Shown piece after piece: positions 18,504 to 25,587 of a DNA stretch of 64,000 nucleotides; the stretch's first letter is position 1; every line of letters starts with the position of its first letter. Origin of the DNA: Candidatus Aminicenantota bacterium (GTDB taxonomy: Bacteria; Acidobacteriota; Aminicenantia; S016-38); assembly GCA_027068075.1 (NCBI GenBank), contig JAMOUJ010000002.1, forward strand, positions 124,001-188,000, read 5' to 3'. The notes under the pieces were generated by a model. The model was not told the DNA's origin. It ran no database searches and was given only the letters and a program-made list of their open reading frames with translations. The position numbers and the translations under genes are program-made.

Positions 18504-19412
18504 ATGAAAAGCATAGTTACAGGGGGTACGGGATTTATCGGAAAGGCCCTGGTGAAAAACCTCCTGGAGAAGGGATGGAAGGTATGGGTCCTGACCAGAA
18601 CGGAGGGAAAGGCACAAAAAACCTTCCCGGAGGCGGAAGAACTCCTTCCCGGAGACCCCTTCCCCCGGGCGGAGGTCCTCTTCAACCTGGCCGGGGCGGT
18701 GAAGGGGAAAACCTACCACGACTTCGCCAGGGCCAATGTGGAGTTTATAAAAAACATCCTGGAAAAATCCCGGGGAAAGGTGGATAAAATAGTCCACCTG
18801 AGTTCCCAGGCGGCGGGGGGGCCTTCCCCGAACTGTCAGCCTATCAAGGAGGATGCAGAAAATCCCGTATCCCTCTACGGAAAAAGCAAACTGGAGGGGG
18901 AGCGGCTGGTAAAGACCTTCCCCGGAGAATGGGTGGTGCTGAGGCCCCCGGCGGTCTTCGGGGAGGAAGATTACGCCTTCACTGACCTCTACAAACTTAT
19001 AAAAAGGGGCTTCGCCCCCTGGATGGGCCCCAGGAAGTTTTCGGTTATCTATGTGAAGGACCTGGCCTATTCCCTGGAGGTGGCGGTGGAAAAAGGGAAA
19101 AGGGAGGTTTTTAATGTTGCCTCCCAGGAGGAGGTGGACTACTGGGATTTCGTCATGGAGATAGCGGACATTCTGGGGAGAAAACGGGTAAGGAAGATCC
19201 CGGTTCCCCTTTCCCTGGCCGGGGCAATAGCCAGGGCCGCCCAGGCCTTCAGTGCCTCCATGTTTACGGTGGACAAGATAAGGGAATTAAGGTATCCCTG
19301 CTGGATCCTGGATGTATCCAGGGCAGAACAAAGGGGAATTTTGAGGAGAACGCCCCTGAGGAAGGCCCTGGAAAACACCCTGGCCTGGGCCCGAACCCAG
19401 GGAATTATTTAA
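18504..19412 (+). CDS. Extended SDR (NAD-dependent epimerase/dehydratase family)
   Basis: 302 residues. The nucleotide-binding motif is MKSIVTGGTGFIGKAL (TGGxGFIG), followed by LFNLAGAVKG, HLSSQAAGG and the catalytic YGKSK (about 130-134). The C-terminal half includes VLRPPAVFGEED and FNVASQEEVDYWDF. This pattern fits NAD(P)-dependent oxidoreductases of the kind used for sterols, ceramide precursors or cinnamoyl-type substrates, not typical sugar-nucleotide epimerases. It is divergent from the SPT-like gene, which is suggestive of a lipid role (for example 3-oxo reduction), but this is inference. There is no SD; the -10 lies 9 nt before the ATG. It overlaps the Memo-like gene by 8 nt tail to tail. 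Confidence 0.75.
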   Translation: MKSIVTGGTGFIGKALVKNLLEKGWKVWVLTRTEGKAQKTFPEAEELLPGDPFPRAEVLFNLAGAVKGKTYHDFARANVEFIKNILEKSRGKVDKIVHLSSQAAGGPSPNCQPIKEDAENPVSLYGKSKLEGERLVKTFPGEWVVLRPPAVFGEEDYAFTDLYKLIKRGFAPWMGPRKFSVIYVKDLAYSLEVAVEKGKREVFNVASQEEVDYWDFVMEIADILGRKRVRKIPVPLSLAGAIARAAQAFSASMFTVDKIRELRYPCWILDVSRAEQRGILRRTPLRKALENTLAWARTQGII

Positions 19413-20436
19413 GGCGATATCCTATGGCCCAGTATCCTACCCAGTGCTTCAGGGAGAAGGGCGCCGTGGTTCCTATGCCCATGCGAAAGGCCGGGAGAAC
19501 TCCCAGGCTGTAACTATCCCCGTATTTAAAGGCCACCCCCTCCAGGTTCCTTCCCCAAAGTTCCGCCAGCCTTCTCAGGGTAAGAAGGCCGAAGGGGACC
19601 GAGAACCTGCCGCACCAGGTAATCCCCTCACCCCAGACCCTGTCGGCGAATCCCCTAATCTTCTCTACAGTAATTCTGCCGGAGAGGAATTTTCTTCCCA
19701 GTTCCCTGTCCTGGTCCGTGGCCCTCCGGTGGGATTCCTCGTCAAGGCCGAAGGGGGAAAAATCAAAATCCGGTCCGTAGTGGGTGTTGTCCGAGGATAT
19801 CACGAAGGAGATGTCCTTCCCGGGTTTCAACCCCCTCTCCTTCATGTAGGAGTAAATGACCTCCGCCAGTTTATCGGAAACCCCCTTCATCCTCCAGAAA
19901 TCCATACCGGTGACCATGATGGCCAGGATTTTAACCTTCCTATTGTAATACTGAAGGAAGGGAACCATGGCCTCGGCGGAGTGCTCCAACGCATGGGCCC
20001 TGTTGGAAACCATGTAGTACTTGGAGGGTAATTTCCTCTTTATGTAATTTCTGAGTTCCCCGTCCACCTCCACGGGGCCGTAGGGAGCCTCCCACCTATC
20101 GTAATCGTCCAGGATAATTATTCCCCGGGGGTCCTTCAATTCCACCCTGGCCCGGTGATGGGTAACGGCGAAGATAACCACGGTTTTTGCCCTGGCCACC
20201 CTGGGGATGGCATAAATGTAAACTCTGCCGGCGTACATGTGGTCGTCGTGGGGAGAGACCACCGCAAGCCAATCCCCACGGATTCGGGAAGCCTCCGGTT
20301 CCAGTTTCCGGGAAAGTTCCACGATTTTCTCAATCTGATGGGGCCGGGTACAAAATCCCACATCGTCAAAGAAATTCCTCACTCCGGCCCCCACCACAAA
20401 GGATAAAGTCATAAACAAAGTTAAAACCTTCTTCAT
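19405..20436 (-). CDS. Memo-like (AmmeMemoRadiSam protein B) with signal peptide
   Basis: 343 residues. Family motifs: VSPHDDHMYAGR (about 63-74; the usual form is APHAGYxYSG), VSNRAHALEHSAEAMVPFLQYY (about 140-160), and ISSDNTHYGPDF (about 205). These His and Asp residues resemble the metal site of the Memo/class III dioxygenase fold. Most Memo proteins are cytoplasmic, but this one starts with a hydrophobic export-like segment (MKKVLTLFMTLSFVVGAGV). It follows lptD by 2 nt and has a GGAGG SD. Its reaction is not known. Confidence 0.78.
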   Translation of the reverse strand: MKKVLTLFMTLSFVVGAGVRNFFDDVGFCTRPHQIEKIVELSRKLEPEASRIRGDWLAVVSPHDDHMYAGRVYIYAIPRVARAKTVVIFAVTHHRARVELKDPRGIIILDDYDRWEAPYGPVEVDGELRNYIKRKLPSKYYMVSNRAHALEHSAEAMVPFLQYYNRKVKILAIMVTGMDFWRMKGVSDKLAEVIYSYMKERGLKPGKDISFVISSDNTHYGPDFDFSPFGLDEESHRRATDQDRELGRKFLSGRITVEKIRGFADRVWGEGITWCGRFSVPFGLLTLRRLAELWGRNLEGVAFKYGDSYSLGVLPAFRMGIGTTAPFSLKHWVGYWAIGYRLK

Positions 20437-20438
20437 TT

Positions 20439-22502
20439 TTATCCTCCAAATCTATCAATTCCAAAGCCCACCTGGGGAAGGGAGAAGGAAATGTTGAAGA
20501 AGTAGTGCTCCCGCCGGAAGGGCATGTAGGCAAACCTCAGGATGAACCTGACGCACTGAAGGTTCAAAACCCCTATCACGGTGTATTGCCTGGTCATCCG
20601 GTTTTTTATATCGTAATCCCAGAATCCCCGGAGGCTCAAACCCAGTGGGGATATGTTCAATCCCCCGGCCAGCCTCATCTGGTTGGAGATAAAGGACTGT
20701 TCCTCAAAAACCGACCTGGTGGTGAAGTAATTTCCAGAAAGGTAAAAGGGCATTCCCCGGGGCCTGAGGCCCAAACTTATGGAGTTGAAAAGAAAGTACT
20801 TGTCGTAGGGTTCGTATTGTCCCATCCAGTATATGGAAACGGTCTCGTCCGGGGAGAACCTCAGGTCCAGGTTCACCGAGGAAAAATTGTGGCTTACCGG
20901 AAGTCCCAGGGGGGTTATCACATTCTCCGTCCTGGGATAATAACTTCCCCCCACCGAAAAACTCAGGATCTCCGTGGGAACCCTCTCCTCTCCTATTTTC
21001 TTCTTGGCCAGGAGGCGGTGGGTCAAGGAGAAGTTCACATGGGAAGACGAAGGGAAGTAGTCGTAACCGTCGTAGGAAATTATCCTGGAGAAATAATCGT
21101 AATTGGGGCTCAAAATCAGGGAAAGGGAAGGCTCAATTATGTGTTTGAATCTGGGGGAATATTTGAATCCAGGGGTCTTGAAAATCCTGTAAAATATGGG
21201 CCCGGTTAAGGTGGCGGAGTAAGAATAGGAAAAAAGGCGGAGGGGCTCGTCTATTCTCTCCTCTTCCCTTTTTTGCCGGGAGTAATAGGCCATGTGAAAA
21301 CCGAGTTTGTTGTCAATGCTAAACCAGGGGACCGGCGATAGGGTGTAAACCAGATAGGGCTTCCAGATAACCCTCTGCAACCCATCTCTTTTTTTCTTGT
21401 AGATCTCCTGGATATTGCTGGCCACCAGGGTCTGGGTAAAATACAGGTTTCCCAGAATCCTCTTCCGGGTGAGGGTGAAGTTTACCTCCGGAAGGTGGCG
21501 GAATATCACCTCCCTCCCCCAGAAATAACTTTTCTGCTCGTCGGCCCGGACCACCACGCTGCCGTCCTCCCAGGACTTCGTAAGGTAAACGGAGGAGTAA
21601 AAAAGCCTCTGAACTATTCTGAAGTAATTGGTGGAAATGTTCCACAGAAATTTATACGAACTCACCAGATCAGCGTTGGCGGTAAGCCTCCAGCCCCTGC
21701 CCATCTGGTGGACTTCCCTTCCCTTTATCAGGTAGTCGGACTTGCCGTCCCAATACCTGAAAAAGGAGGTTCTGAAACTTCCGTAATTCCCCTCGTCCCA
21801 CACATACCTGTACTCTCCGGTGAGCATGTAGCCCAGTTGGGACATGTAATCGTAGGACAGGGTAAGGTCAAACCAATCCACCGGGGCCCAGAAGAAATCC
21901 TCTCCTATGTAGTAGCCCTTGTTGGAACTGTGGCCGAACTTCGGCATCAGGAAGCCGGTTTTCCTCTTCTCCTTGGGCATGGGATAGTAGAGATAGGGCA
22001 GGTAAAGGACCGGGACTCCCTTTATCCTGAGAACGGTTCCCCAGAGGGAGACATGGTCGTCCCTGTAGTACTTTCCCTTCCTGGCCCGGGTCTCCCATAT
22101 GGGACAGGTCTGGTTGCAGGGGGTAAACCAGATTTTCTTAAAGGTAAATTCTTTCTTTGAGGAAGCCTCTATCTCCTCGGCCTGAAAGAAGAACCTCTCC
22201 TGAAGCCATCCCCAGACATTCTTGAACCGCATCCTCCCGGTTTTGTAATTGTATTCCCCCTGGGTGGCAGCGATGAAGCCCCGATCAAACACCACGGAGA
22301 CATTTCCCTTGAGGTAAACCTCGCCGGTTTTGAGGTTTGCCCGGAGTTCGTCGGCGTAAACCTTCCCCAGGTCGGAACTTACCTCCACATCCCCACGGGC
22401 CATGAGGATGTCCCCCTCTATCTTCTGATAATCGGCGGTTATTTTAGGAAACTCCTGGGCTGCCAGGAACCAGACCAGGAGAAGGGGAAGGAGTTTTTTC
22501 AT
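20439..22502 (-). CDS. lptD: LPS-assembly outer membrane protein LptD
   Basis: 687 residues with a signal peptide (MKKLLPLLLVWFLAAQ). Residues about 20-110 form the OstA/LptA-like jellyroll (ITADYQKIEGDILMARGDVEVSS, YADELRANLKTGEVYLKGNV), given here in pieces, followed by a long beta-barrel rich in aromatic, alternating strands such as YYSRQKREE and FSLTHRLL. Two cysteines near 127-131 (TPCNQTCPIW) and one near the C-terminus (NLQCVRF) could form the disulfides known in LptD. It inserts lipopolysaccharide at the outer leaflet, so this cell has an LPS-type outer membrane, in agreement with lpxD. It starts inside the DUF1015 stop (ATGA). Confidence 0.92.
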   Translation of the reverse strand: MKKLLPLLLVWFLAAQEFPKITADYQKIEGDILMARGDVEVSSDLGKVYADELRANLKTGEVYLKGNVSVVFDRGFIAATQGEYNYKTGRMRFKNVWGWLQERFFFQAEEIEASSKKEFTFKKIWFTPCNQTCPIWETRARKGKYYRDDHVSLWGTVLRIKGVPVLYLPYLYYPMPKEKRKTGFLMPKFGHSSNKGYYIGEDFFWAPVDWFDLTLSYDYMSQLGYMLTGEYRYVWDEGNYGSFRTSFFRYWDGKSDYLIKGREVHQMGRGWRLTANADLVSSYKFLWNISTNYFRIVQRLFYSSVYLTKSWEDGSVVVRADEQKSYFWGREVIFRHLPEVNFTLTRKRILGNLYFTQTLVASNIQEIYKKKRDGLQRVIWKPYLVYTLSPVPWFSIDNKLGFHMAYYSRQKREEERIDEPLRLFSYSYSATLTGPIFYRIFKTPGFKYSPRFKHIIEPSLSLILSPNYDYFSRIISYDGYDYFPSSSHVNFSLTHRLLAKKKIGEERVPTEILSFSVGGSYYPRTENVITPLGLPVSHNFSSVNLDLRFSPDETVSIYWMGQYEPYDKYFLFNSISLGLRPRGMPFYLSGNYFTTRSVFEEQSFISNQMRLAGGLNISPLGLSLRGFWDYDIKNRMTRQYTVIGVLNLQCVRFILRFAYMPFRREHYFFNISFSLPQVGFGIDRFGG

Positions 22503-23734
22503 GAAAGCAGGTGAACCACCAGTCCGCTCTTCAATTTGGGCTCAAACCATGTGGACTTGGGGGGCATGATTTTCCCCTGATCCGCCACCTCAAGAAGTTC
22601 TTCCACGGAGGTGGGATACATGGAGAAGGCCACGGCGTACTTCCCGCTCCTGACCAGTTCTTCCAGGTAATCGGTTCCCTTAATTCCACCTATAAAACTT
22701 ATCCTCGGGTCCTTCCTTGGGTTTTCTATGCCAAGAATGGGACCCAGAAGGTTCTCCTGCAGTATGGCCACATCCAGGGAAGAAACCGGGTCCGAAGGAT
22801 CGTAGGTTCCTTCTCTGGGAACCAGAAAATACCACTTCCCTCCCAGAAACATGGAGATTTGGTGTTTTCTTCGGGGCACGGGCTCCCCTTCGGAGAGGTG
22901 AAATTTTTCCTTCACCTTTTCCAGAAATTCCTCCGGCGAAAGTCCTCCCAGATCCTTTACCGCCCGGTTGTAGGGCAAAATCTGCATTTCGTCGTGGGGA
23001 AAGACCACCGCCAGGAAGAAGTTGTATTCCTCGTTGCCCGTGTGGCCAGGGTTCTCCCTTTTCTTAATTTCCATAACCCTGTGGGCTGCCGCCGCCCTGT
23101 GGTGGCCGTCGGCTATGTAAAGATGGGAAATACCTTCAAAAATTTCCTTTATCTTTTTTATGACCCCCTCATCCCTCACCACCCAGAAACTGTGTCGGAC
23201 TCCACCGGATTCAAAATCGTATTCCGGCTCGTTTTCCTGAGTATAGTTCCCGACAATTTCCTTCAGGGGAGAACCCCCGTTCCTGTAAAGGAGAAAAACC
23301 GGACCGGTGTTGGCGTTGGTGTAAAGGATGTGTTTGGTCCTGTCCAGTTCCTTGGCCTCCCGGGTAAGTTCGTGGCGTTTTATTTTCCCTTCTGCGTAGT
23401 CCTGGCACGAGGCCGCCACCACCAGACCGGTCTGAACATGGTCCCCCATTTTTTGACGGTAGATGTAAAAATAATCCCTGGGGTCCTGCTTCAAAATCCC
23501 CTCCTGGATAAACCTTTTTAGGTTCTCCGCCCCCTTTTCGTAAACCCTCTCATCGTAAAGGTCCACATCCGGAGGCAGATCAATCTCCGGTTTTATTACA
23601 TGAAGAAAGGAATACGGGTTGTTTCTGGCAATCTCCAGGGCCTCCTCCCGATCCAGGACATCGTAGGGTGGAGAGGCCACCTTTTCCACCAGGTTTTTGT
23701 CGGGTCTAAGTCCACGAAAGGGTTTAACTCTCAT
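22499..23734 (-). CDS. DUF1015 family protein
   Basis: 411 residues. It begins MRVKPFRGLRPDKNLVEKVASPPYDVL, the hallmark of DUF1015 (often annotated as SerC-adjacent HTH or 'conserved hypothetical'). A second hallmark, LYIADGHHRAAAAHRV, is near residue 200, followed by YNFFLAVVFPHDEMQILPYNRAV. The C-terminus has MPPKSTWFEPKLKSGLVVHLL. The DGHHR motif suggests an active site, but the reaction is not established. A GGGAGG SD precedes it, with a likely promoter in the 36-nt gap after the lipoprotein gene. It is coupled to lptD. Confidence 0.9.
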   Translation of the reverse strand: MRVKPFRGLRPDKNLVEKVASPPYDVLDREEALEIARNNPYSFLHVIKPEIDLPPDVDLYDERVYEKGAENLKRFIQEGILKQDPRDYFYIYRQKMGDHVQTGLVVAASCQDYAEGKIKRHELTREAKELDRTKHILYTNANTGPVFLLYRNGGSPLKEIVGNYTQENEPEYDFESGGVRHSFWVVRDEGVIKKIKEIFEGISHLYIADGHHRAAAAHRVMEIKKRENPGHTGNEEYNFFLAVVFPHDEMQILPYNRAVKDLGGLSPEEFLEKVKEKFHLSEGEPVPRRKHQISMFLGGKWYFLVPREGTYDPSDPVSSLDVAILQENLLGPILGIENPRKDPRISFIGGIKGTDYLEELVRSGKYAVAFSMYPTSVEELLEVADQGKIMPPKSTWFEPKLKSGLVVHLLS

Positions 23735-23770: not shown

Positions 23771-24808
23771 TTACGAAGGTTTTCGGAAAAAGGAAAGGAG
23801 GTGGAGGGGTCGGTAAAGGGCCAATTTTCCCTTCCTTTCCACTGCCAGCCAACCGTTGGAAAGAACTTTCCTGAGTTTATACCCCCGGGGAAGGTTAAAG
23901 CGGTAAAGGTACTCCCCCTTCTCCGAAAGAAGGTCAAAATGGGTCCTTCCTGGGGCCTCGTTTACTTCCACCAGAAAATACCCCGAAGGAAGGGGATAAA
24001 TCCCAGCCAGGACAGGAAGACGGGAAGGAAGTTTCCGGGCTATTTCTTCCAGGGCTCTCTGGCGGTCCCGGGGCTTCCATATGAGAAAGGTTGGGGCAAT
24101 CTTCAGCCTCTCGCTCAGGGGCAATTCCGGTGCTTCCACCTTGAACGCAAAACTCCTCAGAATCTTCCCCTCCAGGTTCAGTATCCTGATGCCGTATTTC
24201 TGACTCTCTGCGGTTATCAGGTGGTCCGTGTATGGGGAATAGGCCCACAGAAGGGAGGGAAGCACCTCCGGAGCGGAAACAGCGGAAACTCCCCGGGGGG
24301 ATTTTATTACAAGGGTTCCCAGACTGGCGCTGACAATCAACAATCTTTCCGGTTCCTTTCCATCCGCTATCAAAACCAATTTTCTGACGGCCTTTTCCCT
24401 GCCTATCTCCAGGTAATCCCCCACCAGCCTCCCTTCCCGGGTGGGAACCACCCTCTGATAAAACCTGTCCAGAATCCCCTTCCTGGGAACCTCCCCGGGA
24501 CAGATCTTCACCACCTCCCTGGAAGCGGTGGCCCAGAGACAACCGGCCGTATAGAAGAGGTCAGGGGAATAGGTGAACACTCCGGGCTTAAGCACCTCCT
24601 CCTCTCCTCCCGAAGGTTTTATTTTTACAATGCCTTTTCCTTTCCCGGCCACGAAAACCTCGCCCCGGGGAGATATAGCCACCGAAAGTTTGCCCGGAGG
24701 AAGGTTCATCTCCCTTTCAATCTTAAGTTCCAGTTCCCCCCGGGCCGGATTATACCCACCACATCCTGAAAACAAAACCACAAGGAGCAGGGGCCAGAAT
24801 TTTCTCAA
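23771..24808 (-). CDS. Predicted lipoprotein, propeller-like
   Basis: 345 residues. The N-terminus MRKFWPLLLVVLFSGCGGY has a lipobox ending at Cys16. The mature part has repeated beta-rich segments such as LSVAISPRGEVFVAGKGKG, FTYSPDLFYTAGCLWATAS and 'LLWAYSPYTDHLITA', which suggests a beta-propeller. I do not recognise a family. It overlaps the methyltransferase-NifX gene by 4 nt (ATGA). Probable location is the periplasmic face of the inner or outer membrane. Confidence 0.65.
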   Translation of the reverse strand: MRKFWPLLLVVLFSGCGGYNPARGELELKIEREMNLPPGKLSVAISPRGEVFVAGKGKGIVKIKPSGGEEEVLKPGVFTYSPDLFYTAGCLWATASREVVKICPGEVPRKGILDRFYQRVVPTREGRLVGDYLEIGREKAVRKLVLIADGKEPERLLIVSASLGTLVIKSPRGVSAVSAPEVLPSLLWAYSPYTDHLITAESQKYGIRILNLEGKILRSFAFKVEAPELPLSERLKIAPTFLIWKPRDRQRALEEIARKLPSRLPVLAGIYPLPSGYFLVEVNEAPGRTHFDLLSEKGEYLYRFNLPRGYKLRKVLSNGWLAVERKGKLALYRPLHLLSFFRKPS

Positions 24809-25587
24809 CGCCGTGCCTCCTTCAGTTTTTCCAGGGCATCGTTAAGTTTCCCTTTGAATTTTATTATATTTACCCCCAGGGCCTCCAGCCTGGCCTCCCC
24901 CTTCTTCCCTATGTTCCCCGTTATTATGGTATTGCAGTCCTCCACCAAGCGGTAAACATCGTAGGTTTTAAGGTGCTGAAAATTATCCCTGTGGATGTTC
25001 CTCCTCTTACCTTCAAACTCAACAACTCCTTCCCCCCACCTGTAAACATAAAAAAAGGAAGCCCGGCCGAACATCTTCGGAAAAACCGTTTCCCCATCGT
25101 CGGTGGCCACCGCCACCCTATGCCATCGGGCGCCCGCCTCCACGAGGTTCTCCTCTCCAAAACCTTCAAGTCTCATCACCTTCAGACCTGCGGCAAGGGC
25201 CATGTCCCTGAGTTCTTCCCTGGAAAAATACCTTTCCGGGATGCCAGTTCTGGCTCCGTAATCCCAATCCCAGATCAAAACCCTCCCCCCCACCGCCAGT
25301 TTTTCTCCGGCCTTTCTCAGAAACTCCCCGGGGAATGAAAAATGATGGAGGGAGTGCACCGAAAATATCAGGTGAAACCACCCCGGAATACGCTCCACCT
25401 CCTCGGCCCGGCCTGGAATCAGAAGGAGGTTGCCCTCTTCCACCCGCTCCACATAAGGGTCCACCCCCACGAAATTGGTCCGGGGAAACTCCCTGGCCAG
25501 AGACCTGAGCAGGGCGCCGCTTCCGCATCCCACCTCCAGGACCCTGCCCTCCTCCGATATAAGGGATTTGAGAACTTCCTCAAACAT
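24805..25587 (-). CDS. SAM methyltransferase fused to a NifX-like (FeMo-cofactor-binding-type) domain
   Basis: 260 residues. Residues 1-145 are a class I methyltransferase: RVLEVGCGSGALLRSLA (motif I), TNFVGVDPYVERVEEG, IFSVHSLHHFSFPGEFL and VLIWDWDYGART. Residues about 155-255 match the dinitrogenase iron-molybdenum cofactor biosynthesis (NifX/NafY/MTH1175) fold: RVAVATDDGETVFPKMFGRASFF, VEDCNTIITGNIGKKGEARLEALGV and 'LNDALEKL'. That domain usually stands alone or joins NifB. No nitrogenase genes are visible. The partner metal or substrate is unknown. Upstream, GAAGGAG and a TAAACT 6 nt before the ATG make the start mode uncertain. Confidence 0.75.
   Translation of the reverse strand: MFEEVLKSLISEEGRVLEVGCGSGALLRSLAREFPRTNFVGVDPYVERVEEGNLLLIPGRAEEVERIPGWFHLIFSVHSLHHFSFPGEFLRKAGEKLAVGGRVLIWDWDYGARTGIPERYFSREELRDMALAAGLKVMRLEGFGEENLVEAGARWHRVAVATDDGETVFPKMFGRASFFYVYRWGEGVVEFEGKRRNIHRDNFQHLKTYDVYRLVEDCNTIITGNIGKKGEARLEALGVNIIKFKGKLNDALEKLKEARR

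Follow-up and report, generated by a model that had tools for sequence, protein, structure and literature searches.

Carrying nitrogenase clusters is the best-known role of NifX-type domains, but they are also found in genomes free of nitrogenase, as is the case here. The stretch of DNA analyzed (64,000 nucleotides, called the window from here on) encodes a methyltransferase followed by such a domain, which raises the question of what a NifX-type module does when it is joined to this enzyme. The initial annotation had noticed that nitrogenase genes were missing; this holds for the whole genome and not just for the window, with no match to PF00148 (nitrogenase alpha/beta) in a search that was positive in 4 of 14 control genomes. 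Genomes are referred to by our own labels, G000 being that of the window.

The gene consists of a single intact open reading frame of 260 codons, from ATG to TGA, located at exactly 24805-25587 of the minus strand, and its features are collected in Table 1. The protein encoded matches Methyltransf_23 over residues 10-137 with 54.8 bits (Pfam, hmmscan; cut-off 27), and Nitro_FeMo-Co (PF02579) over residues 172-256 with 46.7 bits (cut-off 26.3). None of the best 25 of 30 NCBIfam families reached its own cut-off; the best match of the methyltransferase half was to the DVU_1556 methyltransferase (NF045667), with 29.8 bits against an equivalog cut-off of 155, the likeness being limited to this half. 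Positions L17, E18, G20 and G22 of SAM motif I are invariant across the six proteins of the same architecture (type A), and the 260 residues include only two cysteines, C21 and C218. A promoter scan upstream of the gene returned 0 sites.

An AlphaFold2 model was obtained from two sequences, the window protein and L014; its mean pLDDT of 66 corresponds to modest confidence, with values below 50 at residues 108-119, 134-154 and 200-213, where the linker, QHLKT and some of the active site are located. The model has a class I methyltransferase fold at around residues 1-152 and a NafY/NifX fold at 149-260. The two top Foldseek matches were 9ian_F, the NifX of the NifEN-NifX complex (E 2.5e-6), and 1p90, the NafY core (E 1.3e-5), many methyltransferases appearing below them. 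VIA-align superimposed the model on 1p90 with Z 14.2 and rmsd 2.9 (110 aligned, over 149-260), on 9ian_F with Z 13.4 and rmsd 2.0 (106 aligned, over 154-260), and on methyltransferases with Z up to 14.6 over approximately 1-144, in agreement with a predicted NifX/NafY fold in the C-terminal half. The window encodes one protein whose N-terminal half is a class I SAM methyltransferase and whose C-terminal half is a NifX-type domain, as had been proposed from the sequence: Pfam, reading frame, model fold and homologues all bear it out, and the similarity to NifX, for which a check had been suggested, appears both by profile and by fold. The alternative raised at the time, a frameshift or misassembly of two genes, is ruled out because the same junction is present in independent genomes.

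Table 1. Coordinates, within the window, of the fusion gene, its domains and sites, and the neighboring genes.
Feature	Position	Strand	Basis
Fusion gene, 260-aa protein, type A	24805..25587	(-)	ORF, Pfam, NCBIfam, homologues
Methyltransferase domain, residues 10-137	25177..25560	(-)	Methyltransf_23, 54.8 bits
SAM motif I LEVGCGSG, residues 17-24	25516..25539	(-)	Type A alignment
NifX-type domain, residues 156-256, of which Pfam matches 172-256	24820..25122	(-)	PF02579, NafY/NifX fold
Met172, at the place of the NafY/NifX cluster-ligand His	25072..25074	(-)	Profile alignment to 1p90
QHLKT, residues 204-208, start of QH-x-KT-x-DVY	24964..24978	(-)	Subfamily alignment
Cys218, invariant in the subfamily	24934..24936	(-)	Aligns with NafY C166
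Putative lipoprotein gene, downstream of the fusion	23771..24808	(-)	Lipobox by eye, no Pfam match
DUF1015 gene	22499..23734	(-)	PF06245, 385.8 bits
lptD	20439..22502	(-)	PF19838, 66.3 bits
Memo-like gene	19405..20436		Context of the fusion operon

Type A fusions were detected in six genomes of the class, from two families (G000, G001, G002, G005, G006 and G330). Within the window's family they are present in five of seven genomes (the first five of these), the G006 copy ending at a contig edge inside the NifX half; G002 is a Candidatus Aminicenantes MAG, with the gene on contig JALXBI010000095.1. The G330 protein, from the other family, shares 39% identity with that of the window over 254 aligned positions. 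The fusion is absent from G004, where both known places are assembled without it and the whole-genome search was empty, and the contig of G003 stops inside DUF1015, short of the expected fusion start, so that absence there is uninformative. When the class was searched with a fusion profile at 1e-15, 12 of 142 genomes matched: the six with type A, two with a different fusion called type B (G301 and G311), one with a remnant (G328), two with a stand-alone NifX domain (G389 and G124), and G291, which was left out of the fusion count as its protein is a methyltransferase of another kind, without the DW--GA-TG motif and without a NifX half.

Between the window and G002, NG86 estimates of dN and dS were 0.26 and 1.68 for the whole gene, 0.26 and 1.61 (ratio around 0.16) for the methyltransferase half, and 0.25 and 1.48 (around 0.17) for the NifX half, ratios that are rough with dS above 1 and near saturation; YN00 gave a dN/dS of 0.26 for the methyltransferase half. 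On these rough estimates, constraint appears to act on both halves.

In two overlapping samples of the phylum, the whole protein matched 7 of 297 genomes at E 1e-10 (G000, G001 and G002 in full length, G124 in the NifX part only, and G060, G083 and G187 in the methyltransferase part only), and the NifX profile at 1e-12 matched 5 of 396, every one inside the class. The G083 protein is a stand-alone type A-like methyltransferase of 169 aa, 31% identical and with the HH and DW--GT-TG motifs, and at E 1e-3 G001 yielded a second match, methyltransferase-only, with 30% identity. A pattern-based scan of genome_contigs, which extended beyond the phylum and detects close relatives only, returned one locus, JALXBI010000095.1, the same gene as in G002. 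Among plasmids, the 13 records matched by the whole protein covered no more than 80% of the query and reached residue 172 at most, leaving the NifX half unmatched, and the viral contigs gave none with the NifX subfamily and seven distant ones with the methyltransferase, none of which extended past residue 161. A search of the open-access literature found no description of a methyltransferase-NifX fusion. The domain pairing is real and conserved, and apparently recurrent.

The genomic context was then compared among the type A genes. In G000, G001 and G002, the fusion is divergent from mnmA and comes first in a lipoprotein-DUF1015-lptD-Memo run with several overlapping ends; in the window the TTG start of the lipoprotein gene overlaps the fusion stop by 4 bases, and the fusion-lipoprotein order is the same in G001 and G002. 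The lipoprotein-DUF1015-lptD operon of the initial annotation thus has the genes as claimed, but it is seen in one genus only, and in the sister genus (G005 and G006) the fusion lies elsewhere, downstream of serS and a DnaJ/TPR-type gene (read by eye). DUF1015-lptD without an adjoining fusion occurs in G004 and G006, of the sister genus, and the serS/DnaJ-type locus of the window's own genome also lacks it, both of which weaken the idea of a role dictated by the lptD operon. Being confined to one genus, the lptD context gives little functional clue. In G330, an Fe-S assembly gene (PF01883) directly follows the fusion. The type A context moves, and among the contexts seen it is metal-linked in G330 only, the immediate neighbors in the window being envelope genes and not metal genes.

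What the NifX half could bind was approached by aligning the subfamily profile with 1p90, where NafY numbering was set by chain count, placing H, C and C on 121, 125 and 166 as in PMC8496260. Met172 aligns with NafY H121, reported there as a cluster ligand, as is H35 of NifX in PMC13128457; the VIA-align ranges are consistent with the latter position to within one residue. The His of the HFG motif is Met in all ten subfamily domains that cover the place, in the form Met-Phe-Gly or Met-Leu-Gly, the cut-off G006 copy also having Met there and the eleventh domain lacking the HFG place. The motif QH-x-KT-x-DVY is present in 11 of 11 subfamily domains, and aligns with approximately NafY 152-160, in a low-confidence region of the model, within the helical lobe 149-162 whose NMR signals are described as broadened by FeMo-co (PMC8496260). 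The DC...IG stretch of the window protein also aligns with NafY. Other PF02579 proteins differ at the ligand place: the six others of the same genome have His in two cases (HFG and HLG), Arg in three (RFG) and neither in one, and a Chlorohelix plasmid protein has His. As far as these alignments go, His is not universal in PF02579, and Met is seen in the QH-x-KT-x-DVY subfamily only. The union of a catalytic and a NifX-type module, as first put forward, is real and recurrent, but the NifX-type cluster-ligand His is replaced by Met, and therefore binding of a FeMo-co-like cluster is not to be assumed.

The same NifX subfamily is found on a second methyltransferase. With the NifX half of the window protein as query at 1e-6, 10 of 142 class genomes matched, and two of the proteins are type B, in which the subfamily domain follows a different enzyme (332 aa in G301 and 335 aa in G311). 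The methyltransferase of the G311 protein is best matched by UbiE/MenG models (67 of 235 bits; PF01209, 66.9 bits), and in BLASTP against the window protein the NifX halves alone align (41% over 100 positions), the methyltransferase halves being without similarity. Two further cases are not counted as intact type B: in G330 the methyltransferase and NifX pieces lie apart, with a stop inside one match, and in G328 most of the methyltransferase is missing beside the NifX domain. The type B protein as query matched 20 plasmid records, always up to residue 227 at most and in the methyltransferase half only.

The type B gene of G311 is surrounded by genes for an MFS transporter, ZIP, ArsP_2 (a 10TM heavy-metal exporter), OsmC, DUF134, CGGC and a second methyltransferase, as well as a radical SAM gene read by eye. 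The part of this locus between 3105 and 9959 (L043), with ZIP, ArsP_2, CGGC and DUF134 beside the fusion, is in itself a candidate metal-handling island. The gene before the fusion of G301 looks of MetF type, by eye. Regarding the stand-alone domains, that of G124 is separated by 12 bases from an ArsP_2 gene that follows it, and has on its other side a gene with sub-threshold matches to the metallo-beta-lactamase fold, and that of G389 adjoins a metallo-beta-lactamase-fold gene and a sirtuin (both by eye).

In a tree of the NifX domain (15 rows and 115 columns, with weak supports and long outgroup branches), type A rows formed a group in 62% of the bootstrap replicates (support 64/53), and type B rows were mixed with stand-alone copies. 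The pairing of NifX with a methyltransferase probably arose more than once, mainly because the methyltransferase halves of types A and B are dissimilar, the tree being no proof of it. Both of these halves are class I enzymes, and may have a remote common source.

With this evidence, we favor a tentative reading, at a probability of roughly 0.4, in which the product of the window gene is a soluble methyltransferase, dependent on SAM, with a re-tooled domain of its own for binding a metal or metallocofactor. The C-terminal half, predicted by profile and model to be a NifX/NafY chaperone fold with an altered site (Met172 and the constant QHLKTYDVY, the latter putatively in the lobe that lies near the cofactor in NafY), would capture a species of soft-metal or metal-sulfur type, either free or borne by a small molecule, and would present it to the N-terminal half or sense it for that half. 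The N-terminal half, expected to bind SAM because motif I is intact, would move the methyl group to the captured species or to a partner. Both domains score above curated cut-offs, the fusion is kept in six genomes, and the altered NifX domain is also joined to another, dissimilar methyltransferase, a sign that both parts may act together on a metal-linked compound. Relatives have metal-linked neighbors (the G311 type B run, ArsP_2 in G124, PF01883 in G330), and related domains are described as binding FeMo-co in NafY (PMC8496260), NifB-co in NifX (PMC13128457), Fe-S in MrpORP (PMC6345978) and thioferrate in IssA (PMC5524996). Counting against it are the absence of the ligand His in 10 of 10 subfamily members, the modest model, the non-metal neighbors in the window and the counterpart of Cys218, NafY C166, which PMC8496260 reports as unimportant for FeMo-co. 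No evidence in the analysis points to a corrinoid, as had been suggested for assay, or to any other named substrate.

The NifX-type half could instead be metal-free, a dimerization or regulatory add-on to an enzyme whose substrate would be an ordinary one (small molecule, RNA or protein), which we consider possible, if doubtful. The ligand His is absent in 10 of 10 members and PMC13128457 describes NifY and NafX as NifX-like proteins without the cofactor-binding His, so that the domain may bind no cluster, and the envelope genes around the window fusion go in the same direction; however, Met, His and Cys are invariant in the subfamily, as would be expected of a site more than of a passive add-on, and the neighbors of relatives are metal-linked.

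A detoxifying enzyme, whose NifX half would sequester a soft metal or metalloid for methylation and export through the exporters found near some relatives, seems unlikely. It draws on the ArsP_2 and ZIP genes beside the G311 fusion, on the presence of ArsP_2 in 3 of 11 subfamily genomes (the ten from the NifX-half search plus G006) versus 5 of the 131 others (8 of 142 in the class; one-sided P 0.016, kinship ignored), and on a weak similarity of type B to the models for ArsM (NF008823, an arsenite methyltransferase; 50.3 of 263 bits) and TehB (tehB, 31.3 of 219.5 bits). Yet UbiE and CpaM models score above ArsM for type B, all of them far under their cut-offs, and ArsP_2 is missing from all seven genomes in the family of the window, therefore the exporter link is not transferable to the window protein, which has two cysteines and no ArsM-level match among the best 25 of 30 NCBIfam families (NF040539, 13.2 of 240 bits). 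Equally improbable is an accessory role in the assembly of Fe-S or heterometal clusters, with the methyltransferase half modifying a partner protein or serving as a non-catalytic scaffold: the PF01883 gene straight after the G330 fusion, the PF02579 domain joined to an assembly ATPase in MrpORP (PMC6345978) and the six further PF02579 genes of the genome speak for it, but SAM motif I is retained in all six type A proteins, against a non-catalytic half, and the fusion has no assembly genes next to it in either genus of the window's family.

Comparison with known systems places the favored reading, a methyltransferase with a built-in binding domain, among several relatives. The C-terminal half shares domain family (PF02579) and fold with the NifX/NafY core; unlike those chaperones, it is fused to a class I methyltransferase, has Met and the constant QH-x-KT-x-DVY instead of the HFG ligand His, and belongs to a genome with no PF00148 match. 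MrpORP, which unites a Mrp/NBP35 ATPase and a PF02579-type domain, and the orange protein are likewise examples of an enzyme fused to such a domain outside nitrogen fixation, but the MrpORP partner is a P-loop NTPase and that of the window protein a methyltransferase, with no Pfam match to a Mrp/NBP35-type ATPase domain. NifB resembles the window protein in order, with SAM-using methyl transfer followed by a C-terminal NifX-like domain, and its methyl group is believed to be passed to a sulfide of the cluster in an SN2 reaction (PMC9692996). NifB, however, belongs to the radical SAM enzymes, whereas the window protein is of the Rossmann-type class I, lacks CX3CX2C with its two cysteines, and scores 21.3 bits against the NifB model TIGR01290 (cut-off 343.65); the analogy is one of plan and not of enzyme class.

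A bolder version of the favored reading would make the protein an analogue of NifB that works without radical chemistry, its class I methyltransferase acting on a metal-sulfur or metalloid species, such as a cluster sulfide, at its own Met/His site in nitrogenase-free organisms. We regard it as a long shot; if true, metallocofactors or metallothiolates would be modified in a new way, and two different methyltransferases would have been recruited to it. What seems new from the sequence comparisons is the QH-x-KT-x-DVY/Met subfamily and its fusion also to a dissimilar, UbiE-like methyltransferase; with an altered-ligand NifX subfamily on two kinds of methyltransferase, methyl transfer could serve as a readout for the ligand of the NifX half.

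Finally, other PF02579 genes were recorded. The NifX domain of type B as query matched one plasmid record, from Chlorohelix (NZ_CP128401.1), at two places, and the one examined has HFG, lacks QHLKT and lies near nif-like genes. Near the HFG-type NifX and an O-acetylhomoserine sulfhydrylase-type gene, this plasmid has nifH, nifB and two genes for nitrogenase component 1; our guess is that the locus perhaps encodes a nitrogenase-like sulfur enzyme rather than a nitrogenase.

The window's own genome has seven PF02579 matches including the fusion, three of them clustered at G000:C5:461640-461909 and neighbors (L002/L024). At this locus, a 177-aa PF02579 protein ends in a 67-aa tail with 36 Gly, 8 Pro, 7 Arg and 5 Trp. 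Its layout is close to that of IssA, described as a thioferrate-storing protein of Pyrococcus furiosus with 179 aa and a 70-aa tail (PMC5524996), which makes it a candidate bacterial IssA-like protein. At another locus (G000:C6, L026, 5709-8161), a PF02579 gene comes before a pair of ATPase genes, whose products have cysteine motifs of ferredoxin type, and a MIP18-like gene (these last three by eye), a run that is likely a metal-cluster assembly operon.
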